This document shows positions 21,274-43,716 of a stretch of DNA of 64,000 nt, one piece after another. The notes under the pieces are model-generated. The model had not been told where the DNA came from and searched no databases. It saw nothing but the letters and a program-made list of their open reading frames with translations. Each line of letters starts with the position of its first letter. Position 1 is the first letter of the stretch. Both the position numbers and the translations under genes were made by a program. The stretch is from Oscillospiraceae bacterium (GTDB lineage Bacteria; Bacillota; Clostridia; Oscillospirales; Oscillospiraceae), in the NCBI GenBank assembly GCA_017458065.1, contig JAFTGD010000020.1:1-64000 (forward strand), given 5' to 3'.

Positions 21274-21302
21274 AATATAGCAAAATTGCTGCCCATTGTC
21301 AA
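21274..21302 (-). promoter_or_regulatory. Promoter of the gntR-ABC operon
   Basis: On the minus strand TTGACA (21302-21297), 17-base spacer, TATATT (21279-21274). The -35 box is part of one copy of the 21296-21510 repeat. Confidence 0.7.
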
Positions 21303-21510
21303 GAGCAGCAATTCTTAATATTTGTACTCATGTCAAGAGCAGCTGTTCTACATTTAATATCCCCCGCCGGAGGCGGGGATACTGTATTCAGATCAAGAAC
21401 AGCTTTTCTTAATTCTTGTGTTCAGGTCAAGGGTAGCTTTCTAATATTAAGATCCCCCGCCGGAGGCGGGGGAACCTGTACTCATGTCAGAAGCAGCAAT
21501 TCTTAATAGG
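21296..21510. repeat. Local array of five degenerate ~33-bp repeats with two GC-rich palindromes
   Basis: Five copies of a unit with core TCAAGAGCAGCTNTTCTTAA start near 21296, 21324, 21384, 21418 and 21478. Two identical palindromes (CCCCGCCGGAGGCGGGG) are interspersed at about 21361-21378 and 21454-21471. It fills the gap between plsY and the GntR operon. A possible further copy is at 1-20. Not a CRISPR: units vary and there are no uniform spacers. Confidence 0.7.
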
Positions 21511-36124: not shown

Positions 36125-36391
36125 CAGGCAGCATCCGGGAGCTCTTTGCCTGTCTCTGTTCTTTCCACCCGCCGGGAGGCGGGTGGAAACTGTTTTTGGC
36201 TTGTCCAGCAGGCAGGCAGCATCCGGAGCTCTTTGCCTGTTTCTGTTCTTTCCACCCGCCGGGAAGGCGGGTGGAAACCGTTTTTTTTACTTGTCCAGCA
36301 GGCAGGCAGCATCCGGGAGCTCTTTGCCTGTCTCTGTTCTTTCCACCCGCCGGGAGGCGGGTGGAAACCGTTTTTTTACTTGTCCAGCAGG
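36125..36391. repeat. Three tandem ~89-bp copies of the pgk 3' end plus hairpin
   Basis: Units start at 36125, 36213 and 36303, with the parent sequence in pgk from 36392. Each contains a copy of the last codons and stop region of pgk and a 12-bp stem (36162-36189, 36249-36277, 36340-36367). A T run follows each stem on the plus strand, so they are terminators for plus-strand RNA; on the minus strand there is no T run. The copies differ by single-base indels. Confidence 0.9.
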
Positions 36392-37566
36392 CAGGCAACA
36401 CCCGGGAGCTCTTTGCCTTCCAGGAACTCCAGCGAAGCGCCGCCGCCGGTGGAGATGTGGGTCACCTTGTCGGCAAAGCCGAGCTTCTCGACTGCGGAAG
36501 CGGAGTCGCCGCCGCCGACGATGGTCACAGCGCCGGACTCGGCCAGAGCCTTGGCCATGGCCTTGGTGCCGCCGGCGAAAGCGTCAAACTCGAACACGCC
36601 CATGGGTCCGTTCCAGACGATGGTCCCGGCGCCCTTGACAGCCGCGGCATAGAGCTCAGCGGTCTTGGGGCCGATGTCCATGCCCATCAGGTCGGCGGGA
36701 ATATCGCCCTCGGCGAGAACCGGCTCGGCGGTGGCGGAAAATTCAGCCGCGCAGAGGTGATCCACCGGCAGAAGGAACTTTACGCCCTTGTCGGCAGCCT
36801 TCTGAATCATGTCACGGGCATAGTCCAGTCTGTCTTCCTCGAGAAGGGACTTGCCGATTTCCTTACCCTGGGCCTTCAGGAAGGTATAGGCCATGCCGCC
36901 GCCGATGATGATAGTGTCGGCCTTCTCAAGCAGGTTGTTGATGACAGCGATCTTGTCAGAGACCTTGGCGCCGCCGAGCACCGCGACGAAGGGGCGCTTC
37001 GGATCATCAAGGGCCTTGCCCATGATGCTGAGCTCTTTGTCTACCAGCAGACCGGAATAGGCGGGCAGATAGGCCGCGACTCCGGCGGTGGAGGCGTGGG
37101 CGCGATGGACGGTACCGAAAGCGTCGGAGACGAAGATCTCCGCCATGTCGGCCAGAGCCTTGGCAAAGTCCGCGCCGTTCTTCTCCTCGCGGATATCAAA
37201 GCGCAGGTTCTCAAGCAGCATGATCTGACCGGGCTGGAGCGCAGCAGCCTTCGCCTGAGCATCCTCGCCGATGATATCGGTGGCGAAAATGACTTCCTGG
37301 CCGAGCAGCTCGGAGAGGCGCTTTGCAACCGGAGCGAGGGTCAGCTTGGTCTTCCACTCGCCCTTGGGCTTTCCGAGGTGAGAGCAGGCGATCACGGCAG
37401 CGCCGTTGTCAAGCAGGTAGCGGATCGTAGGGATCGCAGCGACAATGCGCTTGTTGCTGGTGATCTCGCCGGTCTCTTTGTTCTGCGGGACGTTGAAGTC
37501 GCAGCGGAGAAGGACTTTCTTTCCCTTTACGTCGACATCGTAAACAGTCTTCTTGTTGTAATTCAT
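36376..37566 (-). CDS. pgk: Phosphoglycerate kinase
   Basis: 396 residues. It transfers phosphate from 1,3-bisphosphoglycerate to ADP. Visible: [35 protein letters not shown] and the C-terminal nucleotide loop [13 protein letters not shown] with [16 protein letters not shown] 37566 follows AGGAGG. An extended -10 (TGTTAAAAT near 37641-37649) is the best promoter candidate. Its last codons are the source of the downstream tandem repeat. Confidence 0.97.
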
Positions 37567-39852: not shown

Positions 39853-41068
39853 TCAGCAGTCCGTGACCAGATTGACGAGGATCTCCGTCACCTTGTCCAT
39901 GTTCTCCGCGGAGATGTGCTCATACGGTCCGTGGAAGCCCTCGCCGCCGGTGCCCAGGTTCGGGCACGGGAGGCCGCGGAAGGAGAGCTGGGATCCGTCC
40001 GTTCCGCCCCGCACCGGAACATGCTTCGGCTCGAGACCGGCTTTCCGGAGCGCCCGTTCGGCGCGCTCGATGATCCGGGGCTGCGCTCTCAGCACCTCCG
40101 CCATGTTCCGGTACTGCTCCCGGAGGCTCAGCTCTGCGCTGCCCTCGCCGTATTTTTCATTAAGGAAACGCACCGCCTGCCGCAGGATGGCCTTCCTCGC
40201 CTCAAAGCGCGCGGCGTCGTGGTCGCGGATAATATAGCTGAGCTCGGCTTTCTCCACATCGCCCTTCATGGACACCAGGTGGAAGAAGCCCTCCCGGTCC
40301 TCCGTCGTCTCTGGCCGCTCCGCGCCGGGCAGCAGGGCATTGAACTCCATCGCCACAAGCATTGCGTTGCGCATCTTGTTCTTCGCGTCGCCGGGATGAA
40401 CGTTGATGCCGTGGAAGCTGAGATCTGCCGCCGCCGCGTTGAAGGTCTCGTCGTTGAGTTCCGCAGGGTCTCCCCCGTCCACCGTAAAAGCGAAGTCCGC
40501 GCCCAGCCGCTTAAGATCGAGCAGCTCGGCGCCGTGGCCGATCTCTTCATCCGGCGTAAAGCAGACGGCGATCCTGCCGTGAGGCAGCTTCTCCCGCTGC
40601 AGTCTCTCACAGGCGGTCAGGATCTCCGCAATGCCCGCCTTGTCGTCGGCGCCCAGAACCGTGGTCCCGTCCGTGGTGATGAGGGTGTGGCCCCGCATCG
40701 TCTTCAGCCGGGGGAACATCTCCGGTGAGAGTACCCTTCCGCTCTCGCCGAGCGGCAGCTCGCCCCCGTCATAATCCGGTACCAGCTGCGGCTGTACGTT
40801 CCCCCGGGAAATCCTCATCCGGGATCGTATCCAGGTGGGCGATCAGGCCGATGCATGGCCGTTCCTCCATCCCTTCGGACGCGGGCAGCCTGCCGTAGAC
40901 ATAGGCGTGTTCGTCCACGAACACGTCCTGCAGGCCGAGCTTTATCATTTCCTCCGCCAGCACCTCGCTGAGGTCTCTCTGCCGGGCTGTCGACGGAGTC
41001 TCTTCCGCCCCCTCTCTGCTGGATGTGTGGATCTTCGCATAGCGGATCAGTCTCTCGTAAGCTCTCAT
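39853..41068 (-). pseudogene. pepT: Peptidase T with a single-base frameshift
   Basis: Two frames together give a complete tripeptide aminopeptidase of about 405 residues. The first (from ATG 41068) contains GLIAHLDTIP with zinc ligands; the second (to 39853) contains VLGADDKAGIAEI, DEEIGHGAE, HGINVHPGDAKNKM and the final RGGTDGS and GPYEH ligands. The break is at a run of five Cs (40801-40805, G5 on the coding strand). With four Gs the reading would pass smoothly from DEDFPG into NVQPQLV. This may be a sequencing error, a real mutation or slippage. The ATG overlaps the stop of the GTPase-nuclease gene (ATGA). Confidence 0.88.
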
Positions 41069-43680
41069 TCTGTTCTTTCCTCTTTTCTGTATACAATCGC
41101 GTCTTCTCCGCGGGTCTGGTGCGCCTGATCGTTGCTCCTTGCGAGAACGGCGGAGAGCTGCTTTTCCGCCTCCGCCAGCTCACGCCCGAATTCCTCCGGA
41201 GAGATTCTCAGCACGCCGGAGCGCATGGCCGAGATCCGGATCATCGTATCCGCTGTGACGACCGAAACCCGGTCGTTCTTCCCGATCTGCGATGCAAGCC
41301 GCTCAATATAGGCATCAGCGCTCTCCCCTTCGGGCGTATAGACCACATGGATGTTCGTATGCAAATCGCGGGAGCCGGGGTTTCCGGCGGTGCGGAAACC
41401 GTCGAACACCAGGACCATCTCCTGACCGGTGAACGCGCAGTAGTTGGACAGGCGGTCCATCAGGTATTCCCGGGCCGCGCTCAGACTCTCCCGGGCCAGC
41501 CGCTTCAGCTCCGACTCAGCAAAGATGAAGTTATATCCGTCGACCACCAGGGTGTGCTTTCCCTGCTGCTTCTCCTTTCCGGCGGAAGCGTCCGCCGCCT
41601 CACGGCGCTGAGTGATCTGCGGACGCTTGACCGGGCCGAACTCCCGCAGCATGATGGCTTCCAGTTCGCGGTCCTCGATGCGCTGCACCCGGTGAACCGC
41701 AATCTCGCTCTGCTGCCGTCTGGTCTGTTCTTCCAGAACGGAGGGCAGGTGCATATAGTCCTTCACTTCCCGCCAGGGGACGACGGTTCCCGCACCGTGA
41801 GAACAGAAAACCGAGTCTGCGGGCCACTCGGTGTCCCGCTCCGCCTGATAATCCGTCGCTGCGAGGACCTCCTGCGCGTTGTGGCAGGGCCGGTATCCCG
41901 CCGGGTGTACGGTGATCTTGCCGAGTCCATGGGTGTAGGAGAGCAGCGTCTCCGGATAATCTGCTAATTCCCCCGCCGGAACAGTTCCCGTGAGCCGGGC
42001 GGTCTCTCCCTCTTGCTCCGGGGTCTCCAGTTCGGCGTGCATGCTTCTCAAATCGCTGATGGCGCGGCCAAGCTGCTCCGCAGGCAGCGTTATGGCAAAG
42101 CGGTAGAGCGGCTCCAACAGCACGCACTCGGCCTGCATCAGGCCGTGTCTCAGGGCTCTGCGCGTCGCCTCCCGGAAGTCGCCTCCCTCGGTGTGCTTCG
42201 GATGCGCCCGTCCGGAAGCCAGACGGATCCTCACATCCGTGAGCTCCGCTCCCGTCAATACGCCGGGCAGGGTGACGCCCCGCAGGGCGTCCAGAATCAG
42301 GTTCTGCCAGTTGCGGTCCAGCGCGTCCTCCGGACAGACCGATTCCAACACTACGCCGCTGCCCGCTTCTCCCGGCTCCAGGATCAGATGGACCTCCGCA
42401 TAATGGCGCAGCGGCTCAAAGTGCCTGATCCCCTCGACTCGTTTCGTGACAGTCTCTTTATAGATCAGGCGGCCTTCCTCCAGCCAGGCCTTCACGCCAA
42501 AGCGCTCCAGCAGCAGCGCCCTCAGCATCTCCGCCTGGATTTTACCGGAGAGGCAGACGCTGATCCCCTTCCGGTCGGCGTCCGGCTGCAGTTCGGGCAG
42601 CTCCTCACTGAGCTGGCGAAGCTGGGTCAGCAACACGACGGGGTCCTGTTTGCCCTCCGTCCGAAGGGAAAAGCGGCGCACCGCCTCCGTGCTCTCTTCC
42701 CGCAGCGTTGTCTCCTCGCCGAGCAGGCAGCCTGCCGCGGTCTCCGTGAGGCCAAGCAGGCAGCAGACCTGTCCCGCTTCGACACGGTCCGTCATATCAT
42801 ACCGTGCTCCGGAATAGATCCGGATCCCGGTGACCTTTTCCTCTTTCAGATTTCCGTTTGCGCCGCGGTAGCGCACCGTCTCGCGGACCGAGAGACTGCC
42901 GCCGGTGATCTTCACCTGGGTCATGCGCTGACCGCGGGCGTCCCGGCTGATTTTATAGCAGAGTGCAGAGAAGGTCTCCGTCCTGACCGGCGCCTCGGTC
43001 CAGCGGTCCAGTCCCTCCAGGAAGGGGCGGATCCCGTCCAGCTTCAAGCCGGAGCCGAAAAAGCACGGGAACACGCTTCTGGCCGAAATCGCCCGCTTCA
43101 GCGTGTGATCCGTAACGCTTCCCGTCCCCAGATATTCCTCCAGGCAGGCCTCGTCCAGCTCTGCCGCGGCTTCTCCGATCCGCTCTTCGGAGAGCGTGAA
43201 ATCTGTCACTCCGTCCGAGAGCTTCTCTTTCAGTTCCCTCAGTATTTTTTCTTTGTCACTGGCGACGAGGTCCATCTTCGAGACAAAAATCCAGGTTGGG
43301 ATCTTTTGCCGCTCCAGCAGTTCCCAGATCGTCCCGGTGTCCGCCTGTACGCCCTCGCTCCCGCTGACGACCAGAACCGCCGCGTCCGGGACCTTCAGGC
43401 CTCGCTTCGTCTCGGCAAACAGGTCCGTGTGTCCCGGCGTGTCGATGAGGCTGAAATCCGTGTTCCCGTAGGAAAACACCGCCTGTTTGGAAAAAGCCGT
43501 GATGCCGCGGGCGCGCTCAAAGTCCTCATAGTCCAGGCTCGAATCTCTGTGGTCGACGCATCCGCGCTTCTTGAGTTCGCCCGCCTCATAGAGCAGGGCC
43601 TCGGCGAGCGTGGTTTTCCCCGCGTCCACATGGGCAGTGATACTGAGACATATTCTTTTTTTGTCCGTCCTGTCCTTCAT
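41065..43680 (-). CDS. TetM/EF-G-like translational GTPase fused to a Rae1/YacP-like NYN ribonuclease
   Basis: 871 residues. Residues 1 to about 680 are a translational GTPase of the ribosomal-protection (TetM/TetO) clade: G1 AHVDAGKTT (16-24), RGIT switch I (58-61), DTPGH (80-84), then OB, III, IV and V domains. The G4 motif is SKMD (134-137) in place of NKxD. A charged linker (about 680-707) leads to an NYN domain (708-850) with acidic residues Asp714 (VDGYN), Asp760 (VFDGF), Asp789/Glu793 (ADAYIE) and Asp811 (TADT), matching YacP/Rae1, the Bacillus endoribonuclease that cuts mRNA in the ribosomal A site. TetM-type GTPases bind beside that site. Inference: a ribosome-targeted mRNA-cleaving or rescue factor. 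It should not be called a tetracycline resistance gene on this evidence. Confidence 0.85.
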   Translation of the reverse strand: MKDRTDKKRICLSITAHVDAGKTTLAEALLYEAGELKKRGCVDHRDSSLDYEDFERARGITAFSKQAVFSYGNTDFSLIDTPGHTDLFAETKRGLKVPDAAVLVVSGSEGVQADTGTIWELLERQKIPTWIFVSKMDLVASDKEKILRELKEKLSDGVTDFTLSEERIGEAAAELDEACLEEYLGTGSVTDHTLKRAISARSVFPCFFGSGLKLDGIRPFLEGLDRWTEAPVRTETFSALCYKISRDARGQRMTQVKITGGSLSVRETVRYRGANGNLKEEKVTGIRIYSGARYDMTDRVEAGQVCCLLGLTETAAGCLLGEETTLREESTEAVRRFSLRTEGKQDPVVLLTQLRQLSEELPELQPDADRKGISVCLSGKIQAEMLRALLLERFGVKAWLEEGRLIYKETVTKRVEGIRHFEPLRHYAEVHLILEPGEAGSGVVLESVCPEDALDRNWQNLILDALRGVTLPGVLTGAELTDVRIRLASGRAHPKHTEGGDFREATRRALRHGLMQAECVLLEPLYRFAITLPAEQLGRAISDLRSMHAELETPEQEGETARLTGTVPAGELADYPETLLSYTHGLGKITVHPAGYRPCHNAQEVLAATDYQAERDTEWPADSVFCSHGAGTVVPWREVKDYMHLPSVLEEQTRRQQSEIAVHRVQRIEDRELEAIMLREFGPVKRPQITQRREAADASAGKEKQQGKHTLVVDGYNFIFAESELKRLARESLSAAREYLMDRLSNYCAFTGQEMVLVFDGFRTAGNPGSRDLHTNIHVVYTPEGESADAYIERLASQIGKNDRVSVVTADTMIRISAMRSGVLRISPEEFGRELAEAEKQLSAVLARSNDQAHQTRGEDAIVYRKEERTE

Positions 43681-43687
43681 GCTGCAG

Positions 43688-43716
43688 ATTCTAACAGGTT
43701 TCCCTTTGTTCTGCAA
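43688..43716 (-). promoter_or_regulatory. Promoter implying a leaderless mRNA for the GTPase-nuclease gene
   Basis: On the minus strand TTGCAG (43716-43711), 17-base spacer ending TGT, TAGAAT (43693-43688), an extended -10. Transcription would begin near 43681, at the ATG 43680 itself, and no Shine-Dalgarno sequence fits that ATG. Confidence 0.6.

Follow-up and report, generated by a model that had tools for sequence, protein, structure and literature searches.

A TetM-like GTPase fused to a Rae1-type nuclease domain in Clostridia, a candidate GTPase-docked A-site mRNA nuclease

How bacteria clear ribosomes stuck in mid-message is incompletely understood. In Bacillus subtilis, Rae1 (YacP) reportedly cleaves mRNA at the A site of the ribosome (excerpts of PMC12320835 and PMC6613710). 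This nuclease is a free-standing protein of ~170 residues with a basic tail, FEKWRRGD, that contains R166, and its gene is co-transcribed with yacO (rlmB) (excerpt of PMC6613710). We analyzed a window of 64,000 nucleotides, i.e., the whole stretch formed by positions 1 to 64,000 of contig JAFTGD010000020.1 from an Oscillospiraceae bacterium, and found on its minus strand, at 41065..43680, a gene whose product links a full-length TetM/EF-G-type GTPase by way of a tether to a YacP/Rae1-type NYN nuclease domain. Of the free-standing state, the small size, the co-transcription with rlmB, and the basic tail with R166 that mark Rae1, the protein shows none. We favor, with somewhat better than even confidence, the reading that this fusion is a translation factor that absorbed Rae1 and acts as a GTPase-docked Rae1 cutting A-site mRNA.

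The architecture has been published before: Atkinson 2015 described Tet proteins of ten clostridial species that had acquired a YacP-like NYN domain, for which a role in resistance was proposed as a matter to be tested (excerpt of PMC4342817). These Tet-NYN proteins have the same domain order, an EF-G/Tet-type GTPase followed by a YacP-type NYN, and clostridial hosts, indicating that the window protein is a divergent new member of a published architecture. No further paper on the fusion was found in the open-licence library searched, outside which the key Rae1 papers lie. Set against the published description, on which the comparison relies, what is new here at the level of sequence is the breadth of the distribution (~106 of 291 class genomes rather than ten species), an origin in essentially one event, the lack of a separate YacP alongside the fusion, the loss of a tail motif, and a domain IV tip that is not of the TetM type.

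The window gene is genuine and consists of a single open frame. Translation from the ATG at position 43680 yields 871 residues, and an alternative in-frame TTG located upstream, at 43716, would yield 883 residues (43716..41065). Pfam analysis of the window protein revealed the GTPase domain (GTP_EFTU, 146.7 bits; residues 9-228, 42997..43656, with the P-loop AHVDAGKT, the DTPGH motif, and the G4 motif SKMD), domain IV (EFG_IV, 65.8 bits; residues 405-517, 42130..42468), domain V (EFG_C, 62.3 bits; residues 520-602, 41875..42123), and the nuclease domain (NYN_YacP, 127.2 bits for a gathering cut-off of 24.6 in PF05991; residues 711-856, 41113..41550), each above its cut-off, and no separate match for domains II and III. 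The NCBIfam profile tet_protect aligned with the protein across positions 2-614 of 614, and the five-domain EF-G-like layout of Tet-type protection proteins was recovered. The GTPase fold of TetM and TetO (PDB 3j9y, 3j25, and 4v6v) is present across the whole TetM length, with 27% identity in the structural alignment to 3j9y. The NYN domain matched the Rae1/YacP structures 5mq8 and 5mq9 (E 1.8e-16), with which it shares the DGYN, VFD, TAD..IE, and T.D residues. These results bear out the preliminary description of this DNA, which had recognized in one frame a GTPase of the TetM clade and a C-terminal NYN domain with four acidic positions; that description gave neither the strand nor the disruption of the neighboring peptidase gene.

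Conservation was analyzed in an alignment of 161 proteins of more than 780 residues, comprising the window protein, 60 loci from class genomes, 80 named loci that were the best matches among the matches listed, and 20 others. Since rows were included on the strength of a match with either the NYN profile or the fusion alignment, the presence of an NYN domain is selected for but the identity of single residues is not. The four acidic residues (Asp714, Asp760, Asp789, and Asp811), together with Asn717, were identical in 161/161 fusions, as were the GTPase residues D80, G83, K135, and D137. The P-loop residues G21 and K22 were kept in 160/161, the remaining row being truncated at its start. Thus, by sequence comparison, the catalytic residues of both halves are intact. 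The G4 motif, singled out earlier as altered, is indeed SKMD in the window protein; as a family feature, this alteration did not hold up, since the Asn position is N in 151 fusions, T in 8, and S in 2. These exceptions form a small subgroup that includes rows close to the window protein (L092-L097, L101, and L104).

To the extent that the architecture could be searched across Clostridia, as the preliminary description had suggested, it proved to be widespread. Fusion genomes were counted by a search with the fusion alignment followed by hand classification, which gave ~106 of the 291 sampled class genomes, 7 of these 106 having an incomplete or split fusion; in G224, the halves are on separate contigs, each at a contig end. 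One fusion frame (L235, in G221) contains two in-frame TAG codons and may be a broken gene or a gene with recoded TAG. PF05991 matches at E 0.001 were present in 189 class genomes, 188 of them above the cut-off. An NYN match without fusion was found in 84 genomes, corresponding in 83 of them to frames of 160-217 residues and in 1 to a match below the cut-off. In four fusion genomes, the NYN profile matched twice, the second match being due to a second fusion in one genome and to a 21-bit fragment below the cut-off in the three others. A separate YacP above the Pfam cut-off was therefore found in 0/106 fusion genomes, versus 83/185 of the other genomes (Fisher 7e-21, relatedness being ignored), and the genome that contains the window has no PF05991 match other than the fusion. 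This distribution suggests that the fusion has replaced the free-standing, mRNA-cutting enzyme of the Rae1 type. In a search of the phylum, free-standing frames dominated among the matches listed, and additional fusions occurred outside the class.

Phylogenetic analyses point to one joining event. A GTPase tree obtained by a quick method from 84 rows (63 fusions, 17 NYN-less GTPases, and 4 outgroup sequences) gathered all fusions under a single node (SH-aLRT [Shimodaira-Hasegawa-like approximate likelihood ratio test] support, 98). A single NYN-less row, from a Ligilactobacillus salivarius megaplasmid, was also placed there and is probably a case of NYN loss; the remaining 16 NYN-less rows were located outside this node. 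In an NYN tree of 47 fusion and 42 free-standing rows, a branch with support of 100/99 set the fusion NYNs apart from the rest along with a single free-standing row, L017. A tree constrained to a fusions-only clade was not rejected (p value of the approximately unbiased test [p-AU], 0.36), implying that L017 may be either a break-up product of a fusion or a sister of the NYN donor. Together with the rlmB neighborhoods described below and the sole PF05991 match in the genome containing the window, the trees suggest that YacP joined the GTPase essentially once, without a separate copy remaining. L017, from G243, has an LEKIR tail, and no rlmB-like frame was found upstream of it.

The fused nuclease domain differs from its free-standing relatives in the tail. 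The stretch following the position of G822 spans 51-57 residues in 42/42 free-standing NYNs, with a median net charge of +5, versus 16 to 76 residues in fused NYNs, with a median charge of -1 and fewer than 32 residues in 54/159. A terminal basic motif of the (L/F)EK(W/I/L)RR type, defined from the 42 free-standing rows by a pattern written after viewing their tails, was present in 36/42 of these and in 8/159 fused NYNs, a count near that expected by chance, since in shuffled fused tails the motif turned up 2 times on average and never more than 7 times. The motif is absent from the window protein. In B. subtilis, the Rae1 substitution R166P was recovered among efp suppressors and read as a loss of function by Hummels and Kearns 2019 (excerpt of PMC6613710). 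In the simplest reading, the Rae1 tail would serve in ribosome binding or activation, a role that the GTPase would have taken over in the fusions.

Upstream of the nuclease domain, a conserved GTPase end (residues 616-648, 41737..41835; DSVFCxHGAG...V.YMH in most aligned fusions) is followed by the tether (residues 649-708, 41557..41736), modeled as a helix spanning residues 648-681 and then a low-confidence stretch. The spacing between H644 and D714 varies from 67 to 126 residues among fusions, with a median of 81, and this length alone would not bar the NYN domain from A-site mRNA. A motif search revealed an ExxxIxxxTYG-form element in 110/161 linkers, a >20-fold excess over shuffled sequences (mean, 4.8; at most 12), and in 1/17 of the NYN-less GTPase ends. 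The window version, ELEAIMLREFG, occupies residues 672-682 (41635-41667) inside the tether, and the motif may be a docking element.

These observations bear on whether the fusion is more than an accidental joining of an EF-G-like factor and Rae1, kept for co-expression only and devoid of GTP-driven delivery. The variable length of the tether is compatible with such an origin, as is the existence of NYN-less GTPases and free-standing Rae1 that are not associated across genomes: among genomes lacking the fusion, a free-standing YacP above the cut-off was found in 10/17 of those with an NYN-less GTPase versus 73/168 of those without, showing no excess (Fisher p 0.31). Weighing against mere co-expression are the loss of the Rae1 tail motif, the frequency of the linker motif, and the scarcity of signs of break-up, which amount to a lone free-standing NYN grouped with the fusions in the NYN tree and one NYN-less GTPase within the fusion node. 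We therefore consider an accidental joining unlikely.

The NYN-less GTPases themselves (L172-L187 and L193) were represented by 17 rows of 638-687 residues, and such proteins are sometimes labeled as tetracycline-resistance proteins. GTPases of this kind occur in 17 of the 291 class genomes; a separate YacP accompanies them in 10 of these, and PF05991 found nothing in the other 7. These sisters, found in several Clostridia and on L. salivarius megaplasmids, have in common with the fusions the domain IV tip motif, which is partial in L. salivarius, and the C-terminal SVFC...MH stretch. They differ from the fusions in having no nuclease and end just past that stretch, where the fusion tether begins and near the end of the TetM alignment.

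Free-standing NYN genes lie behind an rlmB-like gene, recognized by a simple C-terminal motif, in 30/43 cases. In the genome containing the window, what comes after the rlmB-like frame is not an NYN gene but an unrelated frame of 1168 residues, and the fusion gene is not directly behind rlmB. The rlmB linkage is of interest because the fusion might instead be an rRNA or tRNA maturation nuclease carried to ribosomes by its GTPase. A maturation role was once predicted for YacP, as cited in Atkinson 2015 (excerpt of PMC4342817), and losses of yacO (rlmB) and rae1 act in one pathway in B. subtilis (excerpt of PMC6613710). This explanation has to contend with the cleavage of A-site mRNA reported for B. 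subtilis Rae1 and with the departure of the fusion from the rlmB neighborhood, and we assign it a low probability.

The domain IV tip is relevant to tetracycline resistance. At this tip (residues 493-502, 42175..42204), the window protein reads HPKHTEGGDF, matching the consensus HxKHTxGGDF that is present, with some exceptions, in most fusions and NYN-less sisters, versus YYSPVSTPADF in TetM and TetW. Pro509 of TetM lies in the tetracycline site and touches C1054 (excerpt of PMC8161019). The equivalent position is occupied by Lys in 154/161 fusions (K495 in the window protein). In the curated NCBIfam resistance model NF012153, the protein scored 379 bits for a cut-off of 775. According to the proposal of Atkinson 2015, the fusion would be a ribosomal-protection protein whose GTPase removes the drug, the added RNase providing a second resistance activity. 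Tet-type protection proteins are indeed the nearest curated families, the top-ranking sequences in the PDB are those of TetO and TetM, and NCBI names some relatives 'TetM/TetW/TetO/TetS family', others being named 'translation factor GTPase family protein'. Against a resistance role stand the Lys residue, the differing tip, and the missed cut-off, as well as the presence of the fusion in about one-third of the sampled class genomes (106/291) and the lack of a conserved neighbor: the commonest neighbor cluster was found at just 18/161 loci, indicating that the fusion has no gene partner. The best reading is that the fusion, which differs from TetM and TetO also by its extra tether and nuclease, is not a tetracycline-resistance protein, and we regard the resistance explanation as very unlikely. 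The delivery to drug-blocked ribosomes envisaged in the preliminary description is likewise not supported, a conserved Lys replacing the drug-displacing residue of TetM and the curated cut-off being missed by far. The label of tetracycline-resistance protein is probably wrong for some GTPases of commensal bacteria, a point that matters when resistance is counted in metagenomes. TetB(P), considered as a possible closer relative, was not the name of any of the 38 plasmid records matched at E 1e-48.

Sequence comparison shows the architecture, catalytic residues that are intact in both halves, an origin in essentially one event, no separate YacP in fusion genomes, and the loss of the tail motif, and these findings argue for a Rae1 absorbed by a translation factor. 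We infer that the GTPase replaces the tail for ribosome binding and that the NYN domain cuts A-site mRNA in a GTP-dependent manner. The EF-G/TetM-like GTPase would dock on a ribosome with an open or stuck A site, domain IV pointing toward the decoding center, and the tethered NYN, located behind the conserved C-terminal end of the GTPase, would thereby be brought to the A site. The C-terminal extension of TetM reportedly reaches the decoding center, which we retain as a lead only. Since the site of a docked Rae1 would also be that of a TetM-like GTPase, we propose an ordered action: following GTP hydrolysis and the departure of domain IV, the NYN would enter and cut the mRNA, and the truncated complex would then be cleared, most simply by transfer-messenger RNA (tmRNA). 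A tmRNA was detected in the genome containing the window (161 bits).

Several observations weigh against this reading. No fusion has a known activity. A docked Rae1 would be in competition with domain IV over the A site, making the order of the steps a guess, and the predicted model of the fusion (predicted template modeling score [pTM], 0.61), with its low-confidence tether, gave no usable placement of the NYN. R166P might merely unfold the last helix of Rae1. The NYN-less sisters show that the GTPase has its own function even when no nuclease is attached, and the lack of any excess of free-standing YacP in their genomes is also unfavorable. The window copy is divergent: two residues invariant in the 42 free-standing NYNs are changed (W722 to E and Q815 to R). 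Finally, the contrasts drawn for the fusion lineage rest on essentially one evolutionary event, making the p values too strong. The identity of the window protein is 40-47% to the 60 others of alignment A1 and up to 52-53% to L092. The list of fold matches for the model was filled by the GTPase part.

A stronger version of the proposal is possible, although we give it rather less than an even chance. Having taken over the ribosome-binding role of the tail, the GTPase would make the fusion a GTP-timed A-site mRNA nuclease and the sole Rae1-type enzyme in about one-third of the sampled class, the HxKHTxGGDF tip and the linker motif setting it apart from EF-G, TetM, and Rae1 as a ribosome-clearing factor in its own right. 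If this is true, GTP hydrolysis, and not the random arrival of a small enzyme, would set the moment of the nuclease step, and the mechanism would be at work in a sizeable fraction of Clostridia, many of them from gut samples according to the record titles.

The fusion stop codon overlaps the start of a downstream peptidase T-like frame by 4 nt (ATGA, 41065..41068). The preliminary description took the coupling to a peptidase gene, along with the altered G4 motif, as a hint of a pathway of ribosome clearance and peptide turnover. The overlap is real and occurs in the window only; the link to peptide turnover was rejected, since in the locus stretches examined pepT-like frames were near the fusion at 2/161 loci, namely, the window and L095, in which the frame starts ~740 nt after the fusion. 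Overall, the earlier interpretation was partly supported: the two-domain protein is genuine, is conserved well above the level of chance, retains its catalytic residues, and appears to substitute for free-standing Rae1. The peptidase T-like gene (39853-41068, minus strand) is disrupted, its sequence being divided between two frames that overlap (41068..40769 and 40818..39853), owing either to a real frameshift or to an assembly error. On the other side of the fusion gene, terminator-like hairpins were present within 250 nt upstream at 31/153 loci versus 25/300 other frames; an attenuation leader is possible, and as the control mixes in operon-internal genes, nothing is claimed. A PADLOC scan gave only a weak match to the LeoA G domain (21 bits). 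Elsewhere in the window, two tandem arrays were detected, with an 89-bp unit in 3.3 copies at 36125-36418 and a 94-bp unit in 2.2 copies at 21299-21508, and the units of both contain, by eye, a GC-rich inverted repeat of the CCCGCCGGGAGGCGGG type.

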